Part shown: positions 9,592 through 46,491 of the stretch, one piece after another
How the letters are laid out: each line of letters starts with the position of its first letter
Numbering within the stretch: position 1 is the first letter of the stretch
NCBI GenBank assembly: GCA_033439295.1
Contig: JAVTLE010000014.1
Location: forward strand, 4,588,001-4,652,000
Source of the DNA: Deuterostichococcus epilithicus
Lineage: Eukaryota > Chlorophyta > Trebouxiophyceae > Prasiolales > Stichococcaceae
DNA: 64,000 bases
Direction: 5' to 3'
The notes under the pieces: generated by a model
The model's input: the letters and a program-made list of their open reading frames with translations, nothing else
Database searches by the model: none
What the model was told of the DNA's origin: nothing
Translations under genes and position numbers: made by a program

Positions 9592-10110
9592 GAAGCCTCG
9601 CTGGACGCGTCCCGAGGAAGCCGTGAGGTCATACGCGTGCAGCGAGCAGGTCCGAAGATCGTCCAAAACCAGAGCAGTGCCCGTTTGCAGGACTCTGCAC
9701 ATGCTAGCCCTGCGAAGCTACAATGACCACACGGGGAGGGGTCGTATTCCCCTTGGACATGACGCGCACGTGCATCAAGGGCAAAGTGAGTTGCCCAGTG
9801 CGGCGTAATGGCATGCAGCAGGTTTGCATCGTGTTGCTGGGTGTTCATCCAGCCTGAGTGCATGGACTGCGATGTGATCTCCCATCAGGTGGGCCTCCCA
9901 GCCAGCAGGGCACAAACGTGATAGCCGCTAAACTGTTACCACCCGCATGAGCAATGCGATGTTCCCCACCTCTGGCATTCCGACAATGCAAACAGCAGTT
10001 GGGATGCAGGTACGTCGCGCCGCGCTCGCAGTTACACGTTTTTTTCCTGCAGGGTCGTCCCTTTTGCACTGCTGCTGGTCCCAGGCTTCATTCTACAGAC
10101 GTCCGCGGAC
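9592..10110. promoter_or_regulatory. Divergent intergenic region between VSR and SWAP genes
   Basis: The two ATGs face away from each other 519 bp apart (VSR at 9591 minus, SWAP at 10111 plus), so the region should hold both promoters and 5' UTRs. I see no clear TATA box near a recognisable start site. The call rests on gene arrangement, not on a defined motif. Confidence 0.45.
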
Positions 10111-23025: not shown

Positions 23026-26000
23026 ATGAGGGCCGCGACCATGGCCGCGGCCAGCAGAGCAGCGATGGCGCTGCTGCTGCTCGCGCTGCTCGCCTCTCCG
23101 GTGCCGCTGGAGGCACGGATGCAGCTGCCCTGGGGGCGCTCACATAACAGCTCAGATGAGCCGGCTGCCAGTGATGATCAGGTGAGCAGCTGTGACCTGT
23201 GTGCCTTCCGCTACCAGCAGTGCAGCATTACTTGCTACCAGCAGTGCAGCATTACACTTCTACAATGTCATTTTCGCGCCTTGCATGGCTCTGTTGGAGC
23301 GTGCGCGGGGGGGTGCACTTCTGGCAGCGAGGGACGAGAGGGGTGGTGCTGCTTAAGGAGTGTTTGCATGCACACGTTCGCAGCCCCAAACAGATCCAGG
23401 CCACAGCGAGTTCCTGTCTGACACCCGTCTGAGGAACATGTGGTGAAACGAATTCAGCAGTTTCGATTTGAACTCCCTGATCAATCCTGCCTTTTAGTCA
23501 ATCGCTGGGAAGCTTGCTGAGTCTCACATGAGGGCTCCTCCGAAGGGGCACAAATATTGGCAACATGGGTGCCAGCAGCATGGGCAGCGGCCTGGTGGTG
23601 GCCTTGAGGCACCTTGTCTGACTGGCCAAGGCGAGCAGTGGCATCGTCTGCTGCACCGACTGCATGAACAGTCCCGACTATGCAAATGTCTGCATAACTT
23701 CAATCACCAAGGTACCCTTGCAGCGCCGCCTACATCTGACCACAGCTCCTTAAACCTGCAGGTCGGCCCCAGCTCGAAAGGCCTGCGCCAGCTGCTGCAG
23801 CTGGTGAGCGTGACCAAGAATGGCGTGTCACTCAACCTCGGCGGCAGCACCTCCGGCCGGGATCCGCAGCCCAATGTCAACTTTCTGGCTGCAACCCCAA
23901 CATCGGCACCGACATCACAGCCGACTGCCGCGCCCGCTAAGGCCGCCGCCAACGCCATCGCTAACGCGAACCTGGGCCTGGGCCTTGGCCTGGGGCTGGG
24001 TCTGACGCTAGGTGGCACGACAACGGCCGCCCCGACACGCACTCCGACGGCCAGCCCCACCGCTATGCCGACTGCAGCGCCGACTGCCGCACCAACAGCA
24101 GCGCCTACAGCGGCGCCTACAGCGGCGCCTACCGCCAGCCCCACCGCCGCGCCGACGGCCACGCCGACACGCGCCCCGACGGCCAGTCCCACTGCTGCGC
24201 CGACGGCCGCGCCTACAGCGGCGCCTACCGCCAGCCCCACCGCCGCGCCGACGGTTGCGCCAACAGCCAGCCCCACTGCTGCGCCGACGGCCGCACCGAC
24301 AGCGGCGCCTACCGCTAGCCCCACCGCAGCGCCTACTGCCAGCCCTACAGCTGCACCGACAGCGGCTCCAACAACGGCCCCGACACGAGCTCCGTCAACT
24401 GCCCCAACACCTCTTCTTGGGCTCACACTCACGCTGGGCTTGCCGACCCGCGCACCCACTGCCATGCCCACGACTGCGCCTACGTCCGTCCCCACTTCAG
24501 CGCCTACAGCTGCTCCCACCGCAAGCCCCACTGCTGCGCCGACCGCAAGCCCGACAGAAGCTCCCACAGTTGCCCCAACAGCGACCCCGGCAGGAGCTCC
24601 CACAGCTGTCCCAACAGCGACCCCGACACGAGCTCCCACAGCAGCACCAACGCCGTTCCTCGGGCTTACACTCACGCTGGGCTTGCCGACCCGTGCACCC
24701 ACTGCTACCCCCACAGCAGGACCGACAGCCAGCCCCATGGCAGGTGCAACTGCTGCGCCCACGGCTGTCCCGACTGCACTTCCCACAGCCGCACCCACGC
24801 CGCTGCTGACGCTGACGCTGCCAACATTGACAGCAGCACCGACAGCCGGCACCGCGGCACCATCAGCAGCTCCCACGCCGGTGCTGGCGCTCACGCTGCC
24901 AACATTGACAGCAGCACCGACAGCCGGCACCGCGGCACCATCAGCAGCTCCCACGCCGCTGCTGACGCTGACGCTGCCAACATTGACAGCAGCACCGACA
25001 GCCGGCACCGCGGCACCGTCAGCAGCTCCCACGCCGCTGCTGACGTTGACGCTGCCAACATTGACAGCAGCACCGACAGCAGGCACCGCGGCACCATCAG
25101 CAGCTCCCACGCCGCTGCTGACGCTGACGCTGCCAACGATGACAGCAGCACCGACAGCAGGCACCGCGGCACCATCAGCAGCTCCCACGTCGCTGCTGAC
25201 GCTGACGCTGCCAACGTTGACAGCAGCACCGACAGCCGGCACTGCGGCACCATCAGCAGCTCCCACGCCGCTGCTGACGCTGACGCTGCCAACATTGACA
25301 GCAGCACCGACAGCCGGCACCGCGGCACCGTCAGCGGCTCCCACGCCGCTGCTGACGCTCACGCTGCCAACGTTGACGGCAGCACCGACAGCCGGCACCG
25401 CGGCACCGTCAGCGACTCCCACGCCGCTGCTGACGCTCACGTTACCCACAGCAACGAATGCACCGACGGCGCTGCCTACCCTGACGCTGCCGACAGCGAC
25501 GCTGCCGACGCTAACGCTGCCCGCCGCCACGCTGCCAACAGCGACCCTGTCGACGCCGACGCTGCCCACCGCCACCCTGCCATCAGTTGATGTGCCGACG
25601 CCAACGCTGCCCGCCGCCACGCTGCCAACAGCGACCCTGCCGACGCCGACGCTGCCCACCGCCACCCTGCCGACAGCGACGCTGCCGACGCCGACGCTGC
25701 CCGCCGCCACGCTGCCAACAGCGACCCTGCCGACGCCGACGCTGCCTGCCGCCACCCTGCCAACAGCGACCCTGCCGACGCCGACGCTGCCCACCGCCAC
25801 CCTGCCATCAGTTGATTTGCCGACGCCGACGCTGCCCGCCGCCACGCTGCCAACAGCAACCCTGCCAACGCCAACACTGCCGTCTGTGATCCAGCCCACC
25901 CTGACGCTGCCAACCGTCACCCTGCCACCATCGACCCTACCGACACCAACGCTGCCGTCTGTGGACCTGCCCACTGTGACGCTGCCAACCGCTACCCTGC

Positions 26001-29000
26001 CAACAGCGACCCTGCCGACGCCCACGCTGCCGTCTGCTGACGCTGCCCACCGCTAACGCTGCCAACAGCGACGCTGCCAACAGCGACCCTACCGACGCCC
26101 ACGCTGCCGTCTGTGGACCTGCCCACCCTGACGCTGCCCACCCTAACGCTGCCAACAGCGACCCTGCCAACAGCGACCCTGCCGACGCTGACGCTGCCGT
26201 CCGTGGACCTGCCCACCCTGACGCTGCCAACCGCCATTCTGCCTACTGCTACCCTGCCGACGCCCACGCTGCCGTCTGTGGACCTGCCCACCCTGACGCT
26301 GCCCATTGCAACGCTGCCAACAGCGACGCTGCCAACAGCGACGCTGCCAACAGCGACCCTACCGACGCCCACGCTGCCGTCTGTGGACCTGCCCACCCTG
26401 ACGCTGCCCATTGCAACGCTGCCAACAGCGACACTACCGACGCCCACGCTGCCGTCTGTGGACCTGCCCACCCTGACGCTGCCCATTGCGACGCTGCCAA
26501 CAGCGACGCTGCCAACAGCGACCCTACCGACGCCGACGCTGCCGTCCGTGGACCTGCCCACCCTGACGCTGCCAACTGCCACCTTGCCAACAGCGACCCT
26601 GCCGACGCCCACGCTGCCGTCTGTGGACCTGCCGACGCTGACGCTGCCATCAGTGGACCTGCCGACGCTGACGCTGCCGACCTGGACCTACCCACGCAAC
26701 GCTGCCATCAGTGGACCTGCCAACGCTGACGCTGCCGTCATTGGACCTGCAACGCACGCTGCACTCTGCCGACGCTGCCGCCACTGCACGCTGCCGCCAC
26801 CACGCTGCCGCCACTCACGCTGACCCGCACTGACGCTGCCGTCTGTGGACCTGCCGACGCTGACGCTGCTGTGGACCTGCCGACGCTGACGCTGCCATCA
26901 GTGGACCTGCCGACGCTGCCGTCTGTGGACCTGCCGACGCTGCCCACCGCCACCCTCCCCACCATCGATCTGCCAACGCTGCCGTCTGTGGACCTGCCCA
27001 CGCTGCCGTCTGTGGACCTGCCAACGCTGACGCTGCCATCTGTGGACCTGCCGACGCTGCCCACCGCCACCCTGCCCACCATCGACCTGCCGACGCTGCC
27101 GTCTGTGGACCTGCCGACGCTGCCCACCGCCACCCTCCCCACCATCGATCTGCCAACGCTGCCGTCTGTGGACCTGCCCACGCTGCCGTCTGTGGACCTG
27201 CCAACGCTGACGCTGCCATCTGTGGACCTGCCGACGCTGCCCACCGCCACCCTCCCCACCATCGATCTGCCAACGCTGCCGTCTGTGGACCTGCCGACGC
27301 TGCCCACCGCCACCCTCCCAACCATCGACCTGCCAACGCTGCCGTCTGTGGACCTGCCGACGCTGCCCACCGCCACCCTCCCCACCATCGATCTGCCAAC
27401 GCTGCCGTCTGTGGACCTGCCGACGCTGCCCACCGCCACCCTCCCCACCATCGATCTGCCAACGCTGCCGTCTGTGGACTTGCCAACGCTGACGCTGCCA
27501 TCAGTGGACCTGCCGACGCTGCCCACCGCCACCCTCCCCACCATCGATCTGCCAACGCTGCCATCAGTGGACCTGCCGACGCTGCCGTCTGTGGACCTGC
27601 CGACGCTGACGCTGCCATCAGTGGATCTCCCGACGCTGCCCACCGCCACCCACCCCACCAACGAACTCCCAACGCTGGCGTCAGTGGACCTGCCGACGCT
27701 GCCGTCTGTGGACCTGCCGACGCTGCCCACCGCCACCCTCCCCACCATCGATCTGCCAACGCTGCCGTCTGTGGGCTTGCCGACGCTGACGCTGCCATCA
27801 GTGGACCTGCCGACGCTGCCGTCTGTGGACCTGCCGACGCTGACGCTGCCATCAGTCGATCTGCCGACGCTGCCCACCGCCACTCTCCCCACCATCGATC
27901 TGCCAACGCTGCCATCAGTGGACCTGCCGACGCTGCCGTCTGTGGACCTGCCGACGCTGCCCACCGCCACCCTCCCCACCATCGATCTGCCAACGCTGCC
28001 GTCTGTGGACCTGCCGACGCTGACGCTGCCATCAGTGGATCTGCCGACGCTGCCCACCGCCACCCTCCCCACCATCGATCTGCCAACGCTGGCGTCTGTG
28101 GACCTGCCGACGCTGCCGTCTGTGGACCTGCCCACGCTGCCGTCTGTGGATCTGCCCGACGCTGCCCACCGCCACCCTCCCCACCATCGATCTGCCAACG
28201 CTGCCGTCTGTGGACCTGCCGACGCTGCCCACAGTCACCCTCCCCACCATCGATCTGCCAACGCTGCCGTCTGTGGACCTGCCGACGCTGCCGTCTGTGG
28301 ACCTGCCGACGCTGACGCTGCCATCAGTGGACCTGCCGACGCTGCCCACCGCCACCCTCCCCACCATCGATCTGCCAACGCTGCCGTCTGTGGACCTGCC
28401 GACGCTGCCAACCGCCACCCTCCCCACCATCGATCTGCCAACGCTGCCGTCTGTGGACCTGCCCACGCTGCCCACCGCCACCCTCCCCACCATCGATCTG
28501 CCAACGCTGCCGTCTGTGGACCTGCCGACGCTGACGCTGCCATCAGTGGATCTGCCGACGCTGCCCACCGCCACCCTCCCCACCATCGATCTGCCAACGC
28601 TGGCGTCTGTGGACCTGCCGACGCTGCCCACCGCCACCCTCCCCACCATCGATCTGCCGACGCTGCCGTCTGTGGACCTGCCCACGCTGCCCACCGCCAC
28701 CCTCCCCACCATCGATCTGCCAACGCTGCCGTCTGTGGACTTGCCAACGCTGCCCACCGCCACCCTCCCCACCATCGATCTGCCAACGCTGCCGTCTGTG
28801 GACCTGCCGACGCTGCCGTCTGTGGACCTGCCCACGCTAACGCTGCCATCAGTGGATCTGCCGACGCTGCCCACCGCCACCCTCCCCACCATCGATCTGC
28901 CAACGCTGCCGTCTGTGGACTTGCCAACGCTGACGCTGCCATCAGTGGACCTGCCGACGCTGCCCACCGCCACCCTCCCCACCATCGATCTGCCAACGCT

Positions 29001-32000
29001 GCCGTCTGTGGGCTTGCCGACGCTGACGCTGCCATCAGTGGACCTGCCGACGCTGCCGTCTGTGGACCTGCCGACGCTGACGCTGCCATCAGTGGACCTG
29101 CCGACGCTGCCGTCTGTGGACCTGCCGACGCTGACGCTGCCATCAGTGGACCTGCCGACGCTGCCCACCGCCACCCTCCCCACCATCGATCTGCCAACGC
29201 TGCCGTCTGTGGACCTGCCGACGCTGACGCTGCCATCAGTCGATCTGCCGACGCTGCCCACCGCCACCCTCCCCACCATCGATCTGCCAACGCTGCCGTC
29301 TGTGGACTTGCCAACGCTGACGCTGCCATCAGTGGACCTGCCGACGCTGCCAACCGCCACTCTCCCCACCATCGATCTGCCAACGCTGCCGTCTGTGGAC
29401 CTGCCGACGCTGACGCTGCCATCAGTGGACCTGCCGACGCTGCCGTCTGTGGACCTGCCGACGCTGACGCTGCCATCAGTCGATCTGCCGACGCTGCCCA
29501 CCGCCACTCTCCCCACCATCGATCTGCCAACGCTGCCGTCTGTGTCCCTGCCGACGCTGACGCTGCCATCAGTGGACCTGCCGACGCTGCCGTCTGTGGA
29601 CCTGCCGACGCTGACGCTGCCATCAGTCGATCTGCCGACGCTGCCCACCGCCACCCTCCCCACCATCGATCTGCCAACGCTGCCGTCTGTGGACCTGCCG
29701 ACGCTGACGCTGCCATCAGTGGACCTGCCAACGCTGCCGTCTGTGGACCTGCCGACGCTGCCCACCGCCACCCTCCCCACCATCGATCTGCCAACGCTGC
29801 CGTCTGTGGACCTGCCGACGCTGACGCTGCCATCAGTCGATCTGCCGACGCTGCCCACCGCCACCCTCCCCACCATCGATCTGCCAACGCTGCCGTCTGT
29901 GGACCTGCCGACGCTGACGCTGCCATCAGTGGATGTGCCGACGCTGCCCACCGCCACCCTCCCCACCATCGATCTGCCAACGCTGCCGTCTGTGGACTTG
30001 CCAACGCTGACGCTGCCATCAGTGGACCTGCCGACGCTGCCCACCGCCACCCTCCCCACCATCGATCTGCCAACGCTGCCGTCTGTGGACTTGCCAACGC
30101 TGACGCTGCCATCAGTGGACCTGCCGACGCTGCCCACCGCCACCCTCCCCACCATCGATCTGCCAACGCTGCCGTCTGTGGACCTGCCGACGCTGACGCT
30201 GCCATCAGTGGATCTGCCGACGCTGCCCACCGCCACCCTCCCCACCATCGATCTGCCAACGCTGGCGTCTGTGGACCTGCCGACGCTGACGCTGCCATCA
30301 GTGGACCTGCCGACGCTGCCAACCGCCACTCTCCCCACCATCGATCTGCCAACGCTGCCNTCTGTGGACCTGCCGACGCTGACGCTGCCATCAGTGGACC
30401 TGCCGACGCTGCCGTCTGTGGACCTGCCGACGCTGACGCTGCCATCAGTCGATCTGCCGACGCTGCCCACCGCCACTCTCCCCACCATCGATCTGCCAAC
30501 GCTGCCGTCTGTGTCCCTGCCGACGCTGACGCTGCCATCAGTGGACCTGCCGACGCTGCCGTCTGTGGACCTGCCGACGCTGACGCTGCCATCAGTCGAT
30601 CTGCCGACGCTGCCCACCGCCACTCTCCCCACCATCGATCTGCCAACGCTGCCGTCTGTGTCCCTGCCGACGCTGACGCTGCCATCAGTGGACCTGCCGA
30701 CGCTGCCGTCTGTGGACCTGCCGACGCTGACGCTGCCATCAGTCGATCTGCCGACGCTGCCCACCGCCACCCTCCCCACCATCGATCTGCCAACGCTGCC
30801 GTCTGTGGACTTGCCAACGCTGACGCTGCCATCAGTGGACCTGCCGACGCTGCCCACCGCCACCCTCCCCACCATCGATCTGCCAACGCTGCCGTCTGTG
30901 GACCTGCCGACGCTGACGCTGCCATCAGTCGATCTGCCGACGCTGCCCACCGCCACCCTCCCCACCATCGATCTGCCAACGCTGCCGTCTGTGGACCTGC
31001 CGACGCTGACGCTGCCATCAGTGGACCTGCCGACGCTGCCGTCTGTGGACCTGCCGACGCTGACGCTGCCATCAGTGGATCTGCCGACGCTGCCCACCGC
31101 CACCCTCCCCACCATCGATCTGCCAACGCTGCCGTCTGTGTCCCTGCCGACGCTGACGCTGCCATCAGTGGACCTGCCGACGCTGCCGTCTGTGGACCTG
31201 CCGACGCTGACGCTGCCGTCAGTGCGATCTGCCGACGCTGCCCACCGCCACCCTCCCCACCATCGATCTGCCAACGCTGCCGTCTGTGGGCTTGCCGACG
31301 CTGACGCTGCCATCAGTGGACCTGCCGACGCTGCCGTCTGTGGACCTGCCGACGCTGACGCTGCCAACGACTGCCGACGCTGCCCACCGCCACCCTCCCC
31401 ACCATCGATCTGCCAACGCTGCCGTCTGTGGACCTGCCGACGCTGACGCTGCCATCAGTGGATCTGCCGACGCTGCCCACCGCCACCCTCCCCACCATCG
31501 ATCTGCCAACGCTGCCGTCTGTGGACCTGCCGACGCTGACGCTGCCATCAGTCGATCTGCCGACGCTGCCCACCGCCACCCTCCCCACCATCGATCTGCC
31601 AACGCTGCCGTCTGTGGGCTTGCCGACGCTGACGCTGCCATCAGTGGACCTGCCGACGCTGCCGTCTGTGGACCTGCCGACGCTGACGCTGCCATCAGTC
31701 GATCTGCCGACGCTGCCCACCGCCACTCTCCCCACCATCGATCTGCCAACGCTGCCGTCTGTGGACCTGCCGACGCTGACGCTGCCATCAGTGGACCTGC
31801 CGACGCTGCCGTCTGTGGACCTGCCGACGCTGACGCTGCCGACGGCCACGCTGCCCACCGCCACCCTCCCCACCATCGATCTGCCAACGCTGCCGTCTGT
31901 GGACCTGCCGACGCTGCCACACCGCCACCCTCCCCACCATCGATCTGCCAACGCTGCCGTCTGTGGACCTGCCCACGCTGCCCACCGCCACCCTCCCCAC

Positions 32001-35000
32001 CATCGATCTGCCAACGCTGCCGTCTGTGGACCTGCCCACGCTGCCCACCGCCACCCTCCCCACCATCGATCTGCCAACGCTGCCGTCTGTGGGCTTGCCG
32101 ACGCTGACGCTGCCATCAGTGGACCTGCCGACGCTGCCGTCTGTGGACCTGCCGACGCTGACGCTGCCATCAGTGGACCTGCCGACGCTGCCGTCTGTGG
32201 ACCTGCCCACGTTAACGCTGCCATCAGTCGATCTGCCGACGCTGCCCACCGCCACCCTCCCCACCATCGATCTGCCAACGCTGCCGTCTGTGGACCTGCC
32301 GACGCTGACGCTGCCGTCAGTGGATGTGCCGACGCTGCCCACCGCCACCCTCCCCACCATCGATCTGCCAACGCTGCCGTCTGTGTCCCTGCCGACGCTG
32401 ACGCTGCCATCAGTGGACCTGCCGACGCTGCCGTCTGTGGACCTGCCGACGCTGACGCTGCCATCAGTCGATCTGCCGACGCTGCCCACCGCCACCCTCC
32501 CCACCATCGATCTGCCAACGCTGCCGTCTGTGGACCTGCCGACGCTGACGCTGCCGACTGCCACGCTGCCCACCGCCACCCTCCCCACCATCGATCTGCC
32601 GACGCTGCCGTCTGTGGACCTGCCGACGCTGACGCTGCCATCAGTCGATCTGCCGACGCTGCCCACCGCCACCCTCCCCACCATCGATCTGCCAACGCTG
32701 CCGTCTGTGGACCTGCCGACGCTGACGCTGCCATCAGTGGACCTGCCGACGCTGCCGTCTGTGGACCTGCCGACGCTGACGCTGCCATCAGTCGATCTGC
32801 CGACGCTGCCCACCGCCACCCTCCCCACCATCGATCTGCCAACGCTGCCGTCTGTGGACCTGCCGACGCTGACGCTGCCATCAGTCGATCTGCCGACGCT
32901 GCCCACCGCCACCCTCCCCACCATCGATCTGCCAACGCTGCCGTCTGTGGGCTTGCCGACGCTGACGCTGCCATCAGTGGACCTGCCGACGCTGCCGTCT
33001 GTGGACCTGCCGACGCTGACGCTGCCATCAGTCGATCTGCCGACGCTGCCCACCGCCACCCTCCCCACCATCGATCTGCCAACGCTGCCGTCTGTGTCCC
33101 TGCCGACGCTGACGCTGCCATCAGTGGACCTGCCGACGCTGCCGTCTGTGGACCTGCCGACGCTGACGCTGCCATCAGTCGATCTGCCGACGCTGCCCAC
33201 CGCCACCCTCCCCACCATCGATCTGCCAACGCTGCCGTCTGTGTCCCTGCCGACGCTGACGCTGCCATCAGTGGACCTGCCGACGCTGCCGTCTGTGGAC
33301 CTGCCGACGCTGACGCTGCCGTCAGTGGACGTGCCGACGCTGCCCACCGCCACCCTCCCCACCATCGATCTGCCAACGCTGCCGTCTGTGGACCTGCCGA
33401 CGCTGCCAACCGCCACCCTCCCCACCATCGATCTGCCAACGCTGCCGTCTGTGGACCTGCCGACGCTGCCCACCGCCACCCTCCCCACCATCGATCTGCC
33501 AACGCTGCCGTCTGTGGACCTGCCCACGCTGCCCACCGCCACCCTCCCCACCATCGATCTGCCAACGCTGCCGTCTGTGGACTTGCCAACGCTGCCCACC
33601 GCCACCCTCCCCACCATCGATCTGCCAACGCTGCCGTCTGTGGACTTGCCAACGCTGACGCTGCCATCAGTGGACCTGCCGACGCTGCCCACCGCCACCC
33701 TCCCCACCATCGATCTGCCAACGCTGCCGTCTGTGGACCTGCCGACGCTGACGCTGCCATCAGTCGATCTGCCGACGCTGCCCACCGCCACTCTCCCCAC
33801 CATCGATCTGCCAACGCTGCCGTCTGTGGACCTGCCACCCCTCACGCTGCCATCAGTCGACCTGCCGACGCTGCCGTCTGTGGNCCTGCCGACGCTGACG
33901 CTNCCATCAGTCGATCTGCCNACGCTGCCCACCGCCACTCTCCCCACCATCGATCTGCCAACGCTGCCGTCTGTGTCCCTGCCGACGCTGACGCTGCCAT
34001 CAGTGGACCTGCCGACGCTGCCGTCTGTGGACCTGCCGACGCTGACGCTGCCATCAGTCGATCTGCCGACGCTGCCCACCGCCACCCTCCCCACCATCGA
34101 TCTGCCAACGCTGCCGTCTGTGGACCTGCCGACGCTGACGCTGCCATCAGTGGATCTGCCGACGCTGCCCACCGCCACCCTCCCCACCATCGATCTGCCA
34201 ACGCTGCCGTCTGTGGACCTGCCGACGCTGACGCTGCCATCAGTCGATCTGCCGACGCTGCCCACCGCCACCCTCCCCACCATCGATCTGCCAACGCTGC
34301 CGTCTGTGGACCTGCCGACGCTGACGCTGCCATCAGTGGATGTGCCGACGCTGCCCACCGCCACCCTCCCCACCATCGATCTGCCAACGCTGCCGTCATG
34401 TGGACCTGCCGACGCTGCCGTCTGTGGACCTGCCGACGCTGACGCTGCCATCAGTCGATCTGCCGACGCTGCCGTCTGTGGACCTGCCCACGCTGCCGTC
34501 TGTGGACCTGCCAACGCTGACGCTGCCAACAGCCACGCTGCCCACCGCCACCCTCCCCACCATCGATCTGCCAACGCTGCCGTCTGTGGACCTGCCGACG
34601 CTGCCCACCGCCACCCTCCCCACCATCGATCTGCCAACGCTGCCGTCTGTGGACCTGGCGACGCTGCCCACCGCCACCCTCCCCACCATCGATCTGCCAA
34701 CGCTGCCGTCTGTGGACCTGCCCACGCTGCCCACCGCCACCCTCCCCACCATCGATCTGCCAACGCTGCCGTCTGTGGACCTGCCGACGCTGACGCTGCC
34801 ATCAGTGGACCTGCCGACGCTGCCGTCTGTGGACCTGCCGACGCTGACGCTGCCATCAGTGGACCTGCCGACGCTGCCGTCTGTGGACCTGCCCACGTTA
34901 ACGCTGCCATCAGTCGATCTGCCGACGCTGCCCACCGCCACCCTCCCCACCATCGATCTGCCAACGCTGCCGTCTGTGGACCTGCCGACGCTGACGCTGC

Positions 35001-38000
35001 CGTCAGTGGATGTGCCGACGCTGCCCACCGCCACCCTCCCCACCATCGATCTGCCAACGCTGCCGTCTGTGGACTTGCCAACGCTGACGCTGCCATCAGT
35101 GGACCTGCCGACGCTGCCGTCTGTGGACCTGCCGACGCTGACGCTGCCGACGGCAACGCTGCCCACCGCCACCCTCCCCACCATCGATCTGCCAACGCTG
35201 CCGTCTGTGGACTTGCCAACGCTGACGCTGCCATCAGTGGACCTGCCGACGCTGCCCACCGCCACCCTCCCCACCATCGATCTGCCAACGCTGCCGTCTG
35301 TGGACCTGCCAACGCTGCCCACCGCCACCCTCCCCACCATCGATCTGCCAACGCTGCCGTCTGTGGACCTGCCGACGCTGCCCACGACGGCCACCCTCCC
35401 CACCATCGATCTGCCAACGCTGCCGTCTGTGGACTTGCCAACGCTGACGCTGCCATCAGTGGACCTGCCGACGCTGCCCACCGCCACCCTCCCCACCATC
35501 GATCTGCCAACGCTGCCGTCTGTGGGCTTGCCGACGCTGACGCTGCCATCAGTGGACCTGCCGACGCTGCCGTCTGTGGACCTGCCGACGCTGACGCTGC
35601 CGTCAGTGGATGTGCCGACGCTGCCCACCGCCACCCTCCCCACCATCGATCTGCCAACGCTGCCGTCTGTGGACTTGCCAACGCTGACGCTGCCATCAGT
35701 GGACCTGCCGACGCTGCCGTCTGTGGACCTGCCCACGCTGACGCTGCCGTCAGTGGATGTGCCGACGCTGCCCACCGCCACCCTCCCCACCATCGATCTG
35801 CCAACGCTGCCGTCTGTGGACCTGCCGACGCTGCCCACCGCCACCCTCCCCACCATCGATCTGCCAACGCTGCCGTCTGTGGACCTGCCGACGCTGCCCA
35901 CCGCCACCCTCCCCACCATCGATCTGCCAACGCTGCCGTCTGTGGACCTGCCGACGCTGCCCACCGCCACCCTCCCCACCATCGATCTGCCAACGCTGCC
36001 GTCTGTGGACCTGCCCACGCTGCCGTCTGTGGACCTGCCAACGCTGACGCTGCCATCAGTGGACCTGCCGACGCTGCCCACCGCCACCCTCCCCACCATC
36101 GATCTGCCAACGCTGCCGTCTGTGGACCTGGCCGACGCTGCCCACCGCCACCCTCCCCACCATCGATCTGCCAACGCTGCCGTCTGTGGACCTGCGCGAC
36201 GCTGCCCACCGCCACCCTCCCCACCATCGATCTGCCAACGCTGCCGTCTGTGGACCTGCCCACGCTGCCCACCGCCACCCTCCCCACCATCGATCTGCCA
36301 ACGCTGCCGTCTGTGGGCTTGCCGACGCTGACGCTGCCATCAGTGGACCTGCCGACGCTGCCGTCTGTGGACCTGCCGACGCTGCCCACCGCCACCCTCC
36401 CCACCATCGATCTGCCAACGCTGCCGTCTGTGNNCCTGCCGACGCTGACGCTGCCATCAGTGGACCTGCCGACGCTGCCGTCTGTGGACCTGCCGACGCT
36501 GACGCTGCCGACGTGGATGCCGACGCTGCCCACCGCCACCCTCCCCACCATCGATCTGCCAACGCTGCCGTCTGTGTCCCTGCCGACGCTGACGCTGCCA
36601 TCAGTGGACCTGCCGACGCTGCCGTCTGTGGACCTGCCGACGCTGACGCTGCCATCAGTGGATCTGCCGACGCTGCCCACCGCCACCCTCCCCACCATCG
36701 ATCTGCCAACGCTGCCGTCTGTGGGCTTGCCGACGCTGACGCTGCCATCAGTGGACCTGCCGACGCTGCCGTCTGTGGACCTGCCGACGCTGACGCTGCC
36801 GATCAGTGGATGTGCCGACGCTGCCCACCGCCACCCTCCCCACCATCGATCTGCCAACGCTGCCGTCTGTGGACCTGCCGACGCTGACGCTGCCATCAGT
36901 GGACCTGCCGACGCTGACGCTGCCGACATGTGCCGACGCTGCCCACCGCCACCCTCCCCACCATCGATCTGCCAACGCTGCCGTCTGTGGACCTGCCGAC
37001 GCTGACGCTGCCATCAGTCGATCTGCCGACGCTGCCCACCGCCACTCTCCCCACCATCGATCTGCCAACGCTGCCGTCTGTGGACCTGCCGACGCTGACG
37101 CTGCCATCAGTGGACATGCCGACGCTGCCGTCTGTGGACCTGCCGAAGCTGACGCTGCCGCCAGTGGATGTGCCGACGCTGCCCACCGCCACCCTCCCCA
37201 CCATCGATCTGCCAACGCTGCCGTCTGTGGACTTGCCAACGCTGACGCTGCCATCAGTGGACCTGCCGACGCTGCCCACCGCCACCCTCCCCACCATCGA
37301 TCTGCCAACGCTGCCGTCTGTGGACCTGCCCACACTGCCCACCGCCACCCTCCCCACCATCGATCTGCCAACGCTGCCGTCTGTGGGCTTGCCGACGCTG
37401 ACGCTGCCATCAGTGGACCTGCCGACGCTGCCGTCTGTGGACCTGCCGACGCCGACGCTGCCGCCAGTGGATGTGCCGACGCTGCCCACCGCCACTCTCC
37501 CCACCATCGATCTGCCAACGCTGCCGTCTGTGGACTTGCCAACGCTGACGCTGCCATCAGTGGACCTGCCGACGCTGCCCACCGCCACCCTCCCCACCAT
37601 CGATCTGCCAACGCTGCCGTCTGTGGACCTGCCCACACTGCCCACCGCCACCCTCCCCACCATCGATCTGCCAACGCTGCCGTCTGTGGACTTGCCAACG
37701 CTGCCCACCGCCACCCTCCCCACCATCGATCTGCCAACGCTGCCGTCTGTGGACTTGCCAACGCTGACGCTGCCATCAGTGGACCTGCCGACGCTGCCCA
37801 CCGCCACCCTCCCCACCATCGATCTGCCAACGCTGCCGTCTGTGGACCTGCCCACGCTGCCCACCGCCACCCTCCCCACCATCGATCTGCCAACGCTGCC
37901 GTCTGTGGACCTGCCGACGCTGACGCTGCCATCAGTGGACCTGCCGACGCTGCCAACCGCCACCCTCCCCACCATCGATCTGCCAACGCTGCCGTCTGTG

Positions 38001-41000
38001 GACCTGCCGACGCTGACGCTGCCATCAGTGGACCTGCCGACGCTGCCGTCTGTGGACCTGCCGACGCTGACGCTGCCATCAGTGGATCTGCCGACGCTGC
38101 CCACCGCCACCCTCCCCACCATCGATCTGCCAACGCTGGCGTCTGTGGACCTGCCGACGCTGACGCTGCCATCAGTGGACCTGCCGACGCTGCCAACCGC
38201 CACTCTCCCCACCATCGATCTGCCAACGCTGCCGTCTGTGGACCTGCCGACGCTGCCCACCGCCACCCTCCCCACCATCGATCTGCCAACGCTGCCGTCT
38301 GTGGACCTGCCCACACTGCCCACCGCCACCCTCCCCACCATCGATCTGCCAACGCTGCCGTCTGTGGACTTGCCAACGCTGCCCACCGCCACCCTCCCCA
38401 CCATCGATCTGCCAACGCTGCCGTCTGTGGACCTGCCGACGCTGACGCTGCCATCAGTGGACCTGCCGACGCTGCCCACCGCCACCCTCCCCACCATCGA
38501 TCTGCCAACGCTGCCGTCTGTGGACCTGCCCACGCTGCCCACCGCCACCCTCCCCACCATCGATCTGCCAACGCTGCCGTCTGTGGACTTGCCAACGCTG
38601 ACGCTGCCATCAGTGGACCTGCCGACGCTGCCAACCGCCACTCTCCCCACCATCGATCTGCCAACGCTGCCGTCTGTGGACCTGCCGACGCTGACGCTGC
38701 CATCAGTGGACCTGCCGACGCTGCCGTCTGTGGACCTGCCGACGCTGACGCTGCCATCAGTGGATCTGCCGACGCTGCCCACCGCCACCCTCCCCACCAT
38801 CGATCTGCCAACGCTGGCGTCTGTGGACCTGCCGACGCTGACGCTGCCATCAGTGGACCTGCCGACGCTGCCAACCGCCACCCTCCCCACCATCGATCTG
38901 CCAACGCTGCCGTCTGTGGACCTGCCGACGCTGCCAACCGCCACCCTCCCCACCATCGATCTGCCAACGCTGCCGTCTGTGGACCTGCCCACGCTGCCCA
39001 CCGCCACCCTCCCCACCATCGATCTGCCAACGCTGCCGTCTGTGGACCTGCCGACGCTGCCGTCTGTGGACCTGCCGACGCTGACGCTGCCATCGTGGAC
39101 CTGCCGACGCTGCCCACCGCCACCCTCCCCACCATCGATCTGCCAACGCTGCCGTCTGTGGACCTGCCGACGCTGCCACACCGCCACCCTCCCCACCATC
39201 GATCTGCCAACGCTGCCGTCTGTGGACCTGCCGACGCTGCCCACCGCCACCCTCCCCACCATCGATCTGCCAACGCTGCCGTCTGTGGACCTGCCGACGC
39301 TGACGCTGCCATCAGTGGACCTGCCGACGCTGCCGTCTGTGGACCTGCCGACGCTGACGCTGCCATCAGTGGATCTGCCGACGCTGCCCACCGCCACCCT
39401 GCCACGCTGACGCTGCCATCTGTGGACCTGCCGACGCTGCCGTCTGTGGACCTGCCGACGCTGACGCTGCCATCAGTGGACCTGCCGACGCTGCCGTCTG
39501 TGGACCTGCCGACGCTGCCGTCTGTGGACCTGCCGACGCTGACGCTGCCATCAGTGGACCTGCCGACGCTGCCGTCTGTGGACCTGCCGACGCTGACGCT
39601 GCCATCAGTGGATCGGCCGACGCTGCCCACCGCCACCCTCCCCACCATCGATCTGCCAACGCTGCCGTCTGTGGGCTTGCCGACGCTGACGCTGCCATCA
39701 GTGGACCTGCCGACGCTGCCGTCTGTGGACCTGCCGACGCTGACGCTGCCGCACGAGCCGACGCTGCCCACCGCCACCCTCCCCACCATCGATCTGCCAA
39801 CGCTGCCGTCTGTGGGCTTGCCGACGCTGACGCTGCCATCAGTGGACCTGCCGACGCTGCCGTCTGTGGACCTGCCGACGCTGACGCTGCCATCAGTGGA
39901 CCTGCCGACGCTGCCCACCGCCACCCTCCCCACCATCGATCTGCCAACGCTGCCGTCTGTGGACCTGCCGACGCTGCCCACCGCCACCCTCCCCACCATC
40001 GATCTGCCAACGCTGCCGTCTGTGGACCTGCCGACGCTGCCCACCGCCACCCTCCCCACCATCGATCTGCCACACGCTGCCATCAGTGGACCTGCCGACG
40101 CTGCCCACCGCCACCCTCCCCACCATCGATCTGCCAACGCTGCCGTCTGTGGACCTGCCGACGCTGACGCTGCCGTCTGTGGACCTGCCGACGCTGCCGT
40201 CTGTGGACCTGCCGACGCTGACGCTGCCATCAGTCGATCTGCCAACGCTGCCCACCGCCACCCTCCCCACCATCGATCTGCCAACGCTGCCGTCTGTGGA
40301 CCTGCCCACGCTGCCCACCGCCACCCTCCCCACCATCGATCTGCCAACGCTGCCGTCTGTGGACTTGCCAACGCTGACGCTGCCATCAGTGGACCTGCCG
40401 ACGCTGCCCACCGCCACCCTGCCGCCATCGACTGCCAACGCTGCCATCAGTGGACCTGCCGACGCTGCCGTCTGTGGACCTGCCGACGCTGACGCTGCCA
40501 TCAGTGGACCTGCCGACGCTGCCCACCGCCACCCTCCCCACCATCGATCTGCCAACGCTGCCGTCTGTGGACCTGCCGACGCTGACGCTGCCATCAGTGG
40601 ACCTGCCGACGCTGCCAACCGCCACTCTCCCCACCATCGATCTGCCAACGCTGCCNTCTGTGGACCTGCCGACGCTGACGCTGCCATCAGTGGACCTGCC
40701 GACGCTGCCCACCGCCACCCTCCCCACCATCGATCTGCCAACGCTGCCGTCTGTGGACCTGCCGACGCTGCCGTCTGTGGACCTGCCGACGCTGACGCTG
40801 CCATCGACGTGCCGACGCTGCCCACCGCCACCCTCCCCACCATCGATCTGCCAACGCTGCCGTCTGTGGACCTGCCGACGCTGCCGTCTGTGGACCTGCC
40901 GACGCTGACGTCTGCCGACCTGCCGACGCTGCCCACCGCCACCCTCCCCACCATCGATCTGCCAACGCTGCCGTCTGTGGACTTGCCAACGCTGACGCTG

Positions 41001-44000
41001 CCATCAGTGGACCTGCCGACGCTGCCCACCGCCACCCTGCCCACCATCGATCTGCCGACGCTGCCCACCGCCACCCTCCCCACCATCGATCTGCCAACGC
41101 TGCCGTCTGTGGACCTGCCCACACTGCCCACCGCCACCCTCCCCACCATCGATCTGCCAACGCTGCCGTCTGTGGACCTGCCGACGCTGACGCTGCCATC
41201 AGTGGACCTGCCGACGCTGCCCACCGCCACCCTCCCCACCATCGATCTGCCGACGCTGCCCACCGCCACCCTCCCCACCATCGATCTGCCAACGCTGCCG
41301 TCTGTGGACCTGCCGACGCTGACGCTGCCATCAGTGGACCTGCCGACGCTGCCAACCGCCACCCTCCCCACCATCGATCTGCCAACGCTGCCGTCTGTGG
41401 ACCTGCCGACGCTGACGCTGCCATCAGTGGACCTGCCGACGCTGCCCACCGCCACCCTCCCCACCATCGATCTGCCAACGCTGCCGTCTGTGGACCTCCC
41501 GACGCTCCCCACCGCCCCCCTCCCCACCNTCNNTCTNCCAACGCTGCCGTCTGTGGACNTGCCNACGCTGACGCTGCCATCAGTGGACCTGCCGACGCTG
41601 CCCACCGCCACCCTCCCCACCATCGATCTGCCAACGCTGCCGTCTGTGGACCTGCCCACGCTGCCCACCGCCACCCTCCCCACCATCGATCTGCCAACGC
41701 TGCCGTCTGTGGACCTGCCCACACTGCCCACCGCCACCCTCCCCACCATCGATCTGCCAACGCTGCCGTCTGTGGACCTGCCGACGCTGCCCACCGCCAC
41801 CCTCCCCACCATCGACCTGCCGACGCTGCCGTCTGTGGACCTGCCGACGCTGCCCACCGCCACCCTCCCCACCATCGATCTGCCGACGCTGCCCACCGCC
41901 ACCCTCCCCACCATCGATCTGCCAACGCTGCCGTCTGTGGACCTGCCGACGCTGCCCACCGCCACCCTGCCCACCATCGACCTGCCGACGCTGCCGTCTG
42001 TGGACCTGCCGACGCTGACGCTGCCGACCGTCGACCTGCCGACGCCGACGCTGCCCACCGCCACCCTGCCCACCATCGACCTGCCGACGCTGCCGTCTGC
42101 GGACCTGCCAACGCTGCCCACCGCCACCCTCCCCACCATCGATCTGCCAACGCTGCCGTCTGTGGACCTGCCGACGCTGCCCACCGCCACCCTGCCCACC
42201 ATCGATCTGCCAACGCTGCCGTCTGTGGATCTGCCAACGCTGCCCACCGCCACCCTCCCCACCATCGATCTGCCAACGCTGCCGTCTGTGGACCTGCCGA
42301 CGCTGCCCACCGCCACCCTGCCCACCATCGATCTGCCAACGCTGCCGTCTGTGGACCTGCCCACGCTGCCCACCGCCACCCTCCCCACCATCGATCTGCC
42401 AACGCTGCCGTCTGTGGACCTGCCGACGCTGCCCACCGCCACCCTGCCCACCATCGATCTGCCAACGCTGCCGTCTGTGGACCTGCCGACGCTGCCCACC
42501 GCCACCCTCCCCACCATCGATCTGCCAACGCTGCCGTCTGTGGACCTGCCGACGCTGACGCTGCCGACGCCGACGCTGCCCACCGCCACCCTCCCCACCA
42601 TCGATCTGCCAACGCTGCCGTCTGTGGACCTGCCGACGCTGACGCTGCCATCAGTCGACCTGCCGACGCCGACGCTGNCCACCGCCACCCTGCCGACAGC
42701 GACGCTGCCAACAGCGACACTGCCGATCGCCACCCTGCCGACAGCGACGCTGCCAACCCCACGCTGCCGACAGTGACGCTGCCCACCGCCACCCTGCCGA
42801 CAGCGACGCTGCCGACCGCCACCTTGCCGACAGCGACGCTGCCGACAGCGACACTGCCGACGCTGACGCTGCCGACAGCGACGCTGCCCACCGCCACGCT
42901 GCCGACAGTGACGCTGCCCACCGCCACCCTGCCGACAGCGACGCTGCCGTCGCTGACATTGCCCACCGCCACCCTGCCCACCGCCACCCTGCCAACAGCG
43001 ACCCTGCCGACAGCGACGCTGCCGACTGCCACCCTGCCGACAGCGACCCTGCCGACAGCGACGCTGCCGACAGCGACGCTGCCCACTGCCACCCTGCCGA
43101 CAGCGACGCTGCCGACCGCCACCCTGCCGACAGCGACGCTGCCGACCGCCACCCTGCCGACAGCGACGCTGCCCACTGCCACCCTGCCGACAGCGACCCT
43201 GCCGACAGCGACGCTGCCGACCGCCGACGCTGCCGACAGCGACGCTGCCGACCGCCACCCTGCCGACAGCGACGCTGCCGACCGCCACCCTGCCGACAGC
43301 GACGCTGCCGACCGCCACCCTGCCGACAGCGACGCTGCCGACCGCCACCTTGCCGACAGCGACGCTGCCGACCGCCACCTTGCCGACAGCGACGCTGCCG
43401 ACCGCCACCCTGCCGACAGCGACGCTGCCCACCGCCACCCTGCCGACAGCGACGCTGCCGACCGCCGACCCTGCCAACAGCGACCNTGCCGACAGCAACG
43501 CTGCCCACTGCCACCCTGCCGACGGCCACCCTGCCAACAGCGACGCTGCCGACAGTGACGCTGCCCACTGCCACCCTGCCGACAGCGACGCTGCCGTCGG
43601 CGACACTGCCAAGCGCCACCCTGCCGACTGCGACACTGCCGACCCCCACCCTGCCGACAGCGACGCTGCCCACTGCCACCTTGCCCACCGCCACCCTGCC
43701 GACTCTCTCAACTCTCCCCACACTGGCGACAATTCCAAGCTTGCCAACTCTTTTCACACTGCCGACGATCCCTTCACTGGCCACCATCCCCACGCTGCCG
43801 TGGCCCGCGTCGCTGCCGACACTTGCCACCCTAGCCACCATCCCCAGTCTGCCCTCACTGTATACTCTCCCCTCGTTACCTATGGTGACGCTTCCCATCT
43901 TCAGCCTGCCCACGCTCGGTACGCTGCCGAGGCCGACGTTGCCGATTGCTACCCTGCCGACAGCGACGCTGCCGTCGCTGACGTTGCCCACCGCCACCCT

Positions 44001-46491
44001 GCCCACCATCACACTGCCGACAGCGACGCTGCCCACTGCCACCCTGCCGACCGCAACGCTGCCGTCGCTGACGCTGCCCACCGTCACNCTGCCAACAGCA
44101 ACGCTGCCATCGATGACGCTGCCCACCGCCACGCTGCCAACAGCGACGCTGCCGATGCCGACGCTGCCCACCGCGACACTGCCCACCGCCACCCTGCCGA
44201 CAGCGACCTTGCCGTCGCTGACGCTGCCCACCGCCACGCTGCCCACAGCCACCCTGCCGACGCTCTCCACTCTCCCCACCCTGGCGACAACTCCAAGCTT
44301 GCCAACTCTTTTCACACTGCCGACGATCCCTACACTGGCCACCATTCCCACGCTGCCGTCGCTGTTCTCGCTGCCGACACTTGCCACCCTCGCCACCATC
44401 CCCAGTCTGCCCTCACTGTACACTCTCCCCTCGTTACCTACAGTGACGCTGCCCATCTTCAGTCTGCCCACGCTCGGCACACTGCCCAGGCCGACGCTGC
44501 CCACCGCCACGCTGCCAACAGCGACGCTACCAACGCTGACACTGCCCACTGCCACCCTGCCAACCGCGACGCTGCCGTCGGTGACACTGCCGACAGCGAC
44601 CCTGCCGACAGCGACGCTGCCCACTGCCACCCTGCCGACAGCGACGCTGCCCACTGCCACCCTGCCGACAGCGACGCTGCCGTCGGTGACCCTGCCGACA
44701 GCGACCCTGCCGACAGCGACCCTGCCGACAGCGACGCTGCCCACTGCCACCCTGCCGACAGCGACGCTGCCGTCGGTGACACTGCCGACAGCGACCCTGC
44801 CGACAGCGACGCTGCCCACTGCCACCCTGCCGACAGCGACGCTGCCCACTGCCACCNTGCCGACAGCGACGCTGCCGTCGGTGACACTGCCGACAGCGAC
44901 CCTGCCGACAGCGACGTTGCCCACTGCCACCCTGCCGACGCCGACGCTGCCCACTGCCACCCTGCCGACAGCGACGCTGCCCACTGCCACCCTGCCGACA
45001 GCGACGCTGCCGTCGGTGACACTGCCGACAGCGACCCTGCCGACAGCGACGTTGCCCACTGCCACCCTGCCGACGCCGACGCTGCCCACTGCCACCCTGC
45101 CGACAGCGACGCTGCCGACCGCCACCTTGCCGACAGCGACGCTGCCGACAGCGACGCTGCCGACGGCCACGCTGCCGACAGCGACGCTGCCGACAGCGAC
45201 GCTGCCCACCGCCACCCTGCCGACTCTCTCAACTCTCCCCACACTGGCGACAATTCCAAGCTTGCCAACTCTTTTCACTCTGCCGACGATCCCTACACTG
45301 GCCACCATTCCCACGCTGCCGTCGCTGTTCTCGCTGCCGACACTTGCCACCCTGGCCACCATTCCGAGTCTGCCATCACTGTACACTCTGCCCTCGTTAC
45401 CAACGGTGACGCTTCCTATCTTCAGCCTGCCCACGCTCGGCACACTCCCCAGGCCGACGCTGCCGTCGCTGACGCTGCCCACCGCCACTCTGGCAACAGC
45501 GACGCTGCCCACCATCTCAACACTGCCGACACTGAGCACGCTGCCAACCCTCAGCTCCCTGCCTTCTCTCGGTACTTTCCCGAGGCTTCCCACGCTACCC
45601 AGCTTGGCAACGCTGCCGTCGCTGGCAACGCTGCCCAGCTTTGCCACGCTGCCAAGCTTTGCCACGCTGCCGACGCTGGCTACGCTGCCGACGCTGCCCA
45701 GCTTTGCCACACTGCCGAGCTTCGCCACGCTGCCAACGCTGCCAACCTTTGCCACGCTGCCCAGCTTTGCAACGCTGCCATCGCTGGCAACGCTGCCCAG
45801 CTTCAGCCTGCCGACGATCGGCACACTACCAAGCTTCACGCAGCCGCTGCCGGGCACGCTGGCGACGCTGCCGGTTTTCACCTTCCCACGGTTGCCGACG
45901 CTTGCCTTCCCAACGCTGCCGACATTCTCCTTCCCAACGCTTTCATCGGTGAGGCATCCCTCGGCCCTTGACCCAGACCCATTGCAAGCCTTCACCGCAC
46001 GGTGTGATGGCCGTGATTGAGCTGAAAACACCAACAGACAGCTCGCGGTCACTGACTGGAGCTCCTCCCTGTGCCGCAGAGCTCGCTGCCGGTGTTCACG
46101 CTGGGCACACTGCCGGGTACCAACCTGCCAGTCATCGTGCTCTTCCCTGGCGGCTTCAGAACACCTCAGACCGTCACAGTGACGCTCCCCGCACAGGTAA
46201 CAAGCTCACAGGACCACCTTGACGAATTTCACGGCTCACAACGGGCTCGCCCAGGTCGTCGAGATATACAAAATGTGTTTTACAGCCGATGCAGGCCGTG
46301 CAAGCAACCTGCATGGATGGTGCCAGAGCATGGTAGTGGAGCGTTGCATTCCGCGCTGCTCCTCTCCGACTGATGACTGACGATCCTCTGTGCCGTCTTT
46401 GCCGCAGGTGAACATCCCGCAAAACTCCATTGGCGGCGGCACCGTTGGCCGCCGCCTACTGGGCAGCGGCCCTCGACGGCTACACGCCTGA
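23026..46491 (+). CDS. Giant secreted Pro/Thr/Leu-rich repeat protein, about 7,500 aa
   Basis: Exons: 23026-23181 (ATG, signal peptide with core MALLLLALLASPVPLEA), 23631-23711 (Cys-rich: SGIVCCTDCMNSPDYANVC; its acceptor ends aag and is less sure), 23762-45948 (22,187 bp), 46080-46196 (SLPVFTLGTLPGTNLPVIVL) and 46408-46491 (TGA). All junctions are phase 0. The large exon opens with a unique stretch (KGLRQLLQLVSVTKNGVSLN) and then is repeats to near its end: APT/SPT-rich, a 26-residue repeat, TLPTA pentamers, an array of modules ending DLP, then TLPTA again and three 81-residue blocks. I see no anchor or enzyme domain. Composition suggests an O-glycosylated, extended cell-wall or matrix protein, which is inference. 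The L-P-T frame switches about 20 times in the assembly, and exon 3 is not a multiple of three, so the assembled frame is not intact. Uncalled bases lie in the same array. Confidence 0.8.
24000..24802 (+). repeat. APT/SPT-rich low-complexity coding repeat
   Basis: Codes for tandem AAPT, ASPT, ATPT and RAPT units. It is interrupted twice by the same Leu-rich insert (GLTLTLGLPTRAPTA) at about 24420 and 24660. This is the N-terminal mucin-like part of the giant gene. Similar PT-rich stretches occur in secreted algal proteins (general knowledge). Confidence 0.85.
24803..25426 (+). repeat. 78-bp tandem repeat, eight copies
   Basis: Each unit codes for 26 residues: LLTLTLPTLTAAPT followed by AGTAAPSAAPTP. 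Copies differ at few positions: copy 2 begins VLAL, copy 5 has TMTAA and ends in S, copy 8 has SATPTP. A ninth partial copy follows. The reading frame is intact throughout. Confidence 0.92.
25480..26690 (+). repeat. TLPTA/TLPTP/TLPSVDLP mixed repeat
   Basis: Irregular array of 15-bp units (TLPTA, TLPTP) mixed with TLPSVDLP and TLTLP units. It looks like the source from which the downstream DLP modules were amplified. The L-P-T frame shifts near 26040, where about 14 bp of a unit appear to be missing. The stretch 26690-26870 is irregular and breaks the frame more than once. Confidence 0.8.
26840..42660 (+). repeat. 15.8-kb array of three coding modules (24, 30 and 39 bp)
   Basis: The array is built from TLPSVDLP (24 bp), TLTLPSVDLP (30 bp) and TLPTATLPTIDLP (39 bp, containing the palindrome atcgat). 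The 24-bp module writes Ser as TCT (ccg tct gtg gac) and the 30-bp module as TCA (cca tca gtg gac/gat), so modules can be told apart by silent codons. They combine into higher-order units of 63 bp (39+24), 93 bp (39+24+30) and 147 bp (39+24+30+24+30). By length there are roughly 500 modules. Variants such as SVGLP, SVSLP and LASVDLP recur at matching positions of larger blocks, which indicates segmental duplication of long stretches. Confidence 0.93.
42680..43690 (+). repeat. TLPTA 15-bp repeat
   Basis: Near-uniform run of ctgccgacagcgacg and ctgcccaccgccacc units coding for TLPTA pentamers with occasional TLPSL or TLPTV. The frame switches near 42760, 43222 and between about 43465 and 43553. 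The same unit also separates the three large blocks downstream. Confidence 0.88.
43701..45464 (+). repeat. Three copies of a 243-bp coding block
   Basis: Copies at about 43701-43943, 44260-44501 and 45222-45464. Each codes for about 81 residues with Phe and Tyr, unlike the rest of the gene: LSTLPTLAT, SLPTLFTLPTIP, LATIPSLPSLYTLPSLP, then VTLPIFSLPTLGTLPRP. TLPTA/TLPSV pentamers fill the gaps. Copies 2 and 3 are closest; copy 1 has a variant middle (LPWPASLP). Confidence 0.88.

Follow-up and report, generated by a model that had tools for sequence, protein, structure and literature searches.

Secreted proteins made of tandem proline-containing pentads are known from flowering-plant PELPK proteins (PELPK1 and PELPK2 of Arabidopsis) and from the classical PRPs, with their P2V(Y/E/H)K repeats; the PELPK pentad places an acidic residue before Leu-Pro, and the units of PELPK and PRPs carry Lys (PMC3149072). 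The Chlamydomonas wall proteins and agglutinins and the Volvox pherophorins are large, secreted, proline-rich matrix proteins, and the green-algal proline-rich proteins covered by two sources rest on Ser-Pro(n) (PMC3149072, PMC10762512). A period of five residues also characterizes the pentapeptide-repeat (Rfr) proteins (PF00805), which have a small hydrophobic residue at position i-2, Leu at position i, a minimum of eight contiguous pentads and a quadrilateral beta-helix fold. Their published consensus is (A/C/S/V/T/L/I)(D/N/S/K/E/I/R)(L/F)(S/T/R/E/Q/K/V/D)(G/D/E/N/R/Q/K) (PMC8145042); they are described as having a phi angle near -60 at i+1, as employing the i+1 carbonyl and the i+2 amide between coils, and as showing, where turns are of type II, a phi at i+2 that is positive (PMC7337050).

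Here we describe a locus that compares with each of these systems and that we judge, with somewhat better than even confidence, to be one of two paralogous green-algal genes for giant secreted structural proteins. It lies in a window of 64,000 nucleotides, the whole stretch of DNA analysed (contig C12, positions 4588001-4652000, of a 46.8-Mb genome in 21 contigs); the second gene lies on contig C3. As in PELPK and the PRPs, a putatively secreted chain is made of tandem Pro pentads, and the DLP pentads share with PELPK an acidic residue before Leu-Pro; in contrast to both, Lys is almost absent, Thr accounts for roughly a quarter of residues or more and the proteins are far larger, the likeness being one of kind. 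The predicted products resemble the algal matrix proteins in being large, putatively secreted and rich in Pro, but they are built on Leu-Pro-Thr/Ser, with scarcely any contiguous Pro. With Rfr proteins they share the period of five, the small hydrophobic residue at i-2, Leu at i, TATLP pentads in the same register, and more than eight contiguous repeats (the longest runs of pentad steps are 47 in the window and 86 in C3). They differ in that i+1 is Pro and i+2 is Thr/Ser, and in lacking a Pfam pentapeptide match, any match for the main DLP array and a confident fold; when set against the Rfr consensus, i-2 and i fit, i-1 fits in about half of the window pentads, and i+1 and i+2 do not. The PT disordered repeat (PF04886) scores above its cut-off in the N-terminal region of both genes, but it spans only about 480 residues ahead of the pentads. 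Extensins are marked by Ser-Pro(n) blocks with n of at least 2, by an N-terminal signal for secretion and by Pro that is hydroxylated and glycosylated. Because Ser-Pro-Pro is practically absent, the proteins are filed neither as extensins nor as Rfr members; they partly resemble both.

Relatives were searched for in viral, bacterial, archaeal and plasmid collections, none of them eukaryotic. Viral contigs contained 88 pattern stretches for the conserved head of the protein and 24 for a 250-aa array segment, and bacterial and archaeal genomes contained 58, none of which was confirmed; plasmids gave no match. In the literature on giant, proline-rich or pentapeptide algal proteins, no title or abstract start among the matches listed described the family, which is no claim of its absence from print.

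Layout of the locus

The plus strand of the window carries a tandem array rich in Leu, Pro and Thr at about 23.9-45.95 kb, its short repeats running from about 24.0 to 45.9 kb. The initial annotation had proposed one locus here, with a signal-peptide exon, a small Cys-rich exon, a single open repeat exon of 22.2 kb and two short last exons, all with phase-0 junctions, encoding about 7,500 residues in which no known domain was seen. The plus-strand repeat array proved real, whereas the single open exon and the Cys-rich exon found no support. The features as we read them are as follows, all on the plus strand:

23026..23181, plus strand: first exon, with a Met start and a signal-peptide-like hydrophobic core, ending with a Gln/GT junction in phase 0 (by eye)
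23631..23711 (coordinates reconstructed), plus strand: proposed Cys-rich exon, unsupported; best C3 match E 0.11
23762..23931, plus strand: conserved head, adjoining the repeats (LRQLLQLVSVTKNGVSLNLGG...QPNVNFLAA); matches C3:892358-892720 with E 4.1e-8
24028..25461, plus strand: Ala-Pro-Thr (PT) repeat region, grading into 78-base units; PF04886 and tandem repeats
25470..26870, plus strand: mixed TATLP/TPTLP/SVDLP pentads, with 5 of the 23 frame changes of the array
26870..42650, plus strand: main array, made of the pentads SVDLP, TIDLP, TATLP and TLTLP interspersed with TLP triads; third-position bias
42651..45225, plus strand: mostly TATLP pentads, plus two LATIPSLPTLF-type modules (from about 43699 and about 44257)
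45226..45948, plus strand: end of the repeat exon, with a third LATIP module followed by SFATLP and SLATLP units
46080..46196, plus strand: penultimate exon, unique sequence, GT/AG borders by eye
46408..46491, plus strand: last exon, ending in GRRLLGSGPRRLHA-stop, without a hydrophobic tail (by eye)

To follow the array, we used the most likely reading frame with stops penalised (the window path), in which the count of frame changes depends on the chosen penalty. This path comprises 7,338 residues, about 10 of which fall beyond the donor at 45949, and leads to roughly 7,500 residues for the whole protein, as had been annotated.

At the 5' end, the signal-peptide-like exon could be confirmed by eye. 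It is similar to the start of the C3 gene (local match E 1.8e-4), which has the same kind of Gln/GT junction, and it can be joined straight to 23762 in phase 0; C3 shows, by eye, an arrangement of the same kind. The Cys-rich exon was not adopted, as the C3 paralogue has no significant counterpart to it. At the 3' end, the two short last exons were borne out by fitting GT..AG borders (by eye), and the only match of either in the genome is its own place. Uniform phase-0 splicing failed at the repeat exon, since this exon, taken as starting at 23762 and ending at the 45949 donor, measures 22,187 bases as assembled, which three does not divide. A known domain, which had been missed, was found in the N-terminal part: PF04886 matches there at 81.3 and 31.8 bits, and in C3 at 69.3 bits, against a cut-off of 26.2, and APT motifs occupy residues 33-510 of the window path.

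Open frames upstream of the locus, at 9925-11760 and 17017-18156 on the plus strand, contain DRY_EERY plus Surp (of the splicing regulator type) and CID domain matches, so that the giant gene has ordinary nuclear genes in its neighbourhood. Downstream, frames at about 49424-51679 on the minus strand resemble, by eye, an FtsH-type AAA protease; a Pfam scan of frames 49674-50852 and 51050-51679 gave no match. Elsewhere in the genome, a nuclear RbcS gene of two exons on contig C11 is 81% identical over 38 residues and 57% over 60 residues to a Chlamydomonas query, which supports a probable green-algal host.

A second gene on contig C3

When the genome was searched with the conserved head, only the head itself and the start of a 3,225-aa open frame on C3 were matched, the latter at 892358. 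A query from the C-terminal repeat region found 30 places, twelve of which lie in C3:895610-899278 inside that same frame and one on contig C10, and the DLP query found places on C12 and C3 only, among the matches listed of 198. The C10 place was set aside as a low-complexity match, its reading frame being of Val-Gly-Val-Pro type; two long open frames overlap there, 132477-135065 on the minus strand and 132325-134947 on the plus strand, and it is the minus strand that reads the Val-Gly-Val-Pro type repeats.

The C3 gene extends from about 891.07 kb to about 930.9 kb (end by eye) and has the larger repeat array, of about 37 kb. Its order, read by eye, is a signal-peptide-like first exon at about 891.07 kb with its Gln/GT junction, then the head, the PT region and the array, which reaches about 929.9 kb. 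In a small BLAST comparison of 5' open-frame fragments with composition correction off, the window and C3 genes matched in the head (E 1e-9) and in the first-exon region (E 1.8e-4), and the two heads are 42% identical over 66 columns; at the C-terminal ends of the two genes, similarity was not convincing. The C3 path is 12,505 residues long, with 20 frame changes and one stop, and runs without a change of frame for as much as about 7.2 kb. Its Leu-Pro spacings are 5 in 1,951 of 2,204 cases and 3 in only 32; the C3 array is thus larger and more regular than that of the window.

The repeat unit

The array is built on a pentad, [TS]-[AVIL]-[TD]-L-P, into which TLP triads are inserted. The window path contains 1,463 Leu-Pro pairs, whose spacings are 5 in 1,004 and 3 in 353 of 1,462 cases, and the triad is TLP in 350 of the 353. 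The commonest pentads are SVDLP (313), TATLP (289), TIDLP (158) and TLTLP (150). The units of 8, 10 and 13 residues that had been described are sums of these (5+3, 5+5 and 5+5+3), the basic units being 5 and 3.

The window path consists of T (24.3%), L (23.7%), P (22.4%), A (6.9%), D (6.9%), S (6.2%) and V (5.5%) for the most part, and it contains no Cys, no Asn-X-Ser/Thr, 2 Lys, 14 Arg and 3 Glu. Asp occupies i-1 in 473 of the 1,004 pentads, and the summed net charge is about -490 for the window path and about -470 for C3. PP occurs 12 times in the window and 36 times in C3, and overlapping TxT 525 and 1,449 times, respectively.

Reading frame and assembly

The repeat exon, annotated as open over 22.2 kb, is interrupted as assembled: the longest plus-strand open frame is 1,723 aa, and the window path, while free of stops, requires 23 frame changes. 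Moreover, the minus strand of the array, with an open frame of 1,741 aa, is about as open as the plus strand, so that openness alone proves nothing. These observations, together with the 20 frame changes of C3, fit the alternative that the locus is a decaying gene or a non-coding minisatellite, in which arrays would have grown by unequal exchange, the full-length protein would be lost and the breaks would be real; we consider this unlikely, although it is the alternative that we take most seriously.

The positions of the breaks add to this alternative. Eight of the C3 breaks lie in one common sequence context and three in another, as if an indel had been copied with its unit; frame changes recur at one common context in C3 at 924.5-927.5 kb, and in the window two breaks, at 31920 and 39179, lie in identical surroundings. 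Given these shared contexts, the breaks are not all independent random errors, and they could be real indels that were copied along with the units.

Faulty assembly, on the other hand, is suggested by the distribution of ambiguous bases. All 17 N of the window fall within the array (30360-44857), and all 163 N runs in 76 kb of C3 (872001-948000) fall in 895426-929588. In an 80-base block of C3, five copies (908257, 912668, 913163, 918853 and 919648) share four N places, at which five other copies have bases; the pattern used for this block caught nine copies, of which four contain N and five do not, the end of the 912668 copy being slightly different. Shared N places of this kind are hard to explain except by a faulty consensus or by the pasting of a block, which makes copy number and array length uncertain.

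Tests of coding constraint

A chance origin of the array was rejected, as a 63-base unit is present in 139 copies. These copies were picked by DNA mismatch alone, and 284 of their 336 differences from the consensus are third positions of the DLP frame. With every change counted, 288 were synonymous compared to 122.6 expected, a count that treats the copies as independent, which they are not, and that thereby overstates the evidence. In six of six unit types, non-synonymous changes fell short of expectation, with observed-to-expected ratios of 0.10, 0.34, 0.18 and 0.17 for the window types and of 0.44 and 0.55 for those of C3. A single change in the 54-base unit creates a stop.

In a stricter test, distinct changes were counted once for four of the six unit types. 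Among all distinct changes, 26 of 53 were synonymous in the 63-base unit (17.0 expected, p 0.007) and 21 of 35 in the 30-base unit (15.7 expected, p 0.053), while no excess was found in the 54-base unit (20 of 49, 19.6 expected, p 0.50) or in the 45-base unit of C3 (30 of 83, 26.7 expected, p 0.25). When restricted to changes present in at least three copies, the synonymous fraction was 13 of 17 in the 63-base unit (6.0 expected, p 0.0007), 16 of 21 in the 30-base unit (9.7 expected, p 0.005) and 20 of 40 in the C3 unit (13.9 expected, p 0.03), with the 54-base unit again showing no excess (12 of 26, 10.8 expected, p 0.39). In the distinct-change test, a synonymous excess was not seen in the two other frames. 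The evidence for constraint at the protein level is thus good in two of the unit types and modest in C3, and in one type there is none. That one of the four strictly tested types lacks a synonymous bias favors decay; the excess in the other units, confined to the DLP frame, and the retention of the head by both paralogues argue against it.

Fold

The initial annotation held that the repeat units do not suit a regular solenoid. The resolution of the array into pentads and triads, with TATLP in the Rfr register, weakens this view, whereas the matchless DLP array and the lack of a confident fold agree with it. A giant beta-solenoid, in which pentads would coil as in Rfr proteins into a stiff rod with ordered Thr faces, Ala/Val/Ile and Leu lying inside and Pro-Thr/Ser at the corners, appears improbable to us.

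The evidence for such a solenoid comes mainly from phmmer searches against PDB sequences. A right-frame TATLP stretch (42797-43219), which is in register with pentapeptide-repeat proteins, matched them at a best E of 8e-13 in alignments that pair Ala with i-2 and Leu with i, and pentapeptide-repeat matches were also obtained from the C-terminal part (1.3e-8) and from C3 pentads (1.1e-6). One permuted control, TTALP, found two dehydrogenases alone (0.011 and 0.63) and no pentapeptide-repeat protein, so the A-x-L register matters, and the published Rfr geometry leaves room for Pro at i+1. However, a wrong-frame translation of the same DNA also matched pentapeptide-repeat proteins (3e-5), and right-frame queries matched unrelated chains (Lmo2470, 3.7e-6; apolipoprotein B-100, 2.8e-5), which indicates that these E-values are inflated. 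The main DLP array segment found no pentapeptide-repeat protein (best E 0.18, to another molecule), and the Pfam pentapeptide model matched neither the array segments scanned (E up to 1) nor the right-frame TATLP stretch (E up to 0.01). In addition, Pro at i+1 and Thr/Ser at i+2 lie outside the published consensus, Thr would, we infer, be poorly suited to the positive phi that type II turns have at i+2, and the triads interrupt the register in the main array of the window. AlphaFold models had a mean pLDDT of 48.5 for the DLP segment and 42.2 for the C-terminal part, the latter opening with only about seven plain TATLP pentads, so that neither model represents a long plain TATLP stretch; Foldseek returned 31 matches for the DLP-segment model, with a best E of 0.98.

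It is very doubtful, in our estimate, that the uninterrupted pentads form a proline-cornered pentapeptide beta-helix. They would then make a giant Rfr-like solenoid, a micrometre-long, acidic and secreted rod that falls outside the known sequence family. If this were true, its ordered Thr-x-Thr faces could bind ice, calcium or wall polymers; ice binding, which in proteins with ordered TxT faces goes with regular TxT across a flat beta face, was not adopted as the main reading, no fold having been obtained.

Finally, an ordinary hydroxyproline-rich glycoprotein of the extensin, arabinogalactan-protein or pherophorin type is scarcely credible, for although the secreted-type start, the Ala-Pro-Thr region and a sub-threshold Extensin_1 match in one C3 part (51.9 bits against a cut-off of 105) point in its direction, the window parts scanned had no Extensin_1 match, SPP occurs 0 times in the window path and once in C3, and nearly all Pro is preceded by Leu (1,463 of 1,642 in the window path). 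The PF12499 pherophorin model was without a match in this genome and also in control genomes, and so gives no evidence of absence.

Discussion

A giant, secreted and extended protein, as originally proposed, is still the best reading of the locus, and it is strengthened by the similar start and conserved head of the C3 gene. On this reading, the two genes would form a family of secreted acidic pentad-repeat proteins, a variant of the proline-rich tandem-repeat wall proteins. Secretion, expression, wall location, calcium binding and mechanics are features that we infer.

We envisage that an N-terminal signal would take the chain into the secretory pathway, and that the chain would consist of the short conserved head, the disordered Ala-Pro-Thr region and then the pentads [TS]-[AVIL]-[TD]-L-P, roughly a thousand of them in the window gene and two thousand in C3. 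Each Leu-Pro-Thr/Ser step is probably a turn or kink, so that the chain would be a fibre of great length, either flexible or spiral. Its roughly 500 Asp, set against few Lys or Arg, would make the fibre a polyanion that would suit the binding of calcium or basic wall components; its charge suggests cation binding. It may be incorporated into the wall or matrix, where it would act as a spacer or as a filament of a network. O-glycosylation, which had been proposed for the protein at large, is plausible in a heavy, plant Hyp-type form only for the N-terminal Ala-Pro-Thr part and not for the remainder, because most Pro follows Leu and SPP is absent. The length of the arrays would be set by unequal exchange, and each array would be homogenised within its own gene, with the exported, spacer-like character kept; preservation of the head and PT region alongside drifted array mixtures is what would be expected under such within-gene homogenisation.

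If both genes are intact, they would show that giant repeat genes can be concealed by assembly damage, and about 60 kb of a 46.8-Mb genome would be given to secreted proteins of about 7,500 and 12,600 residues that are built on one five-residue motif. Fully extended, such chains would measure a few micrometres, about the size of a small algal cell (estimated at about 0.3 nm per residue). Intact genes would then offer a simple test, set up by nature, of the shape that a proline pentad gives to a fibre, of the means by which long arrays stay in frame, and of the way in which an alga may build its wall without the usual Ser-Pro blocks.
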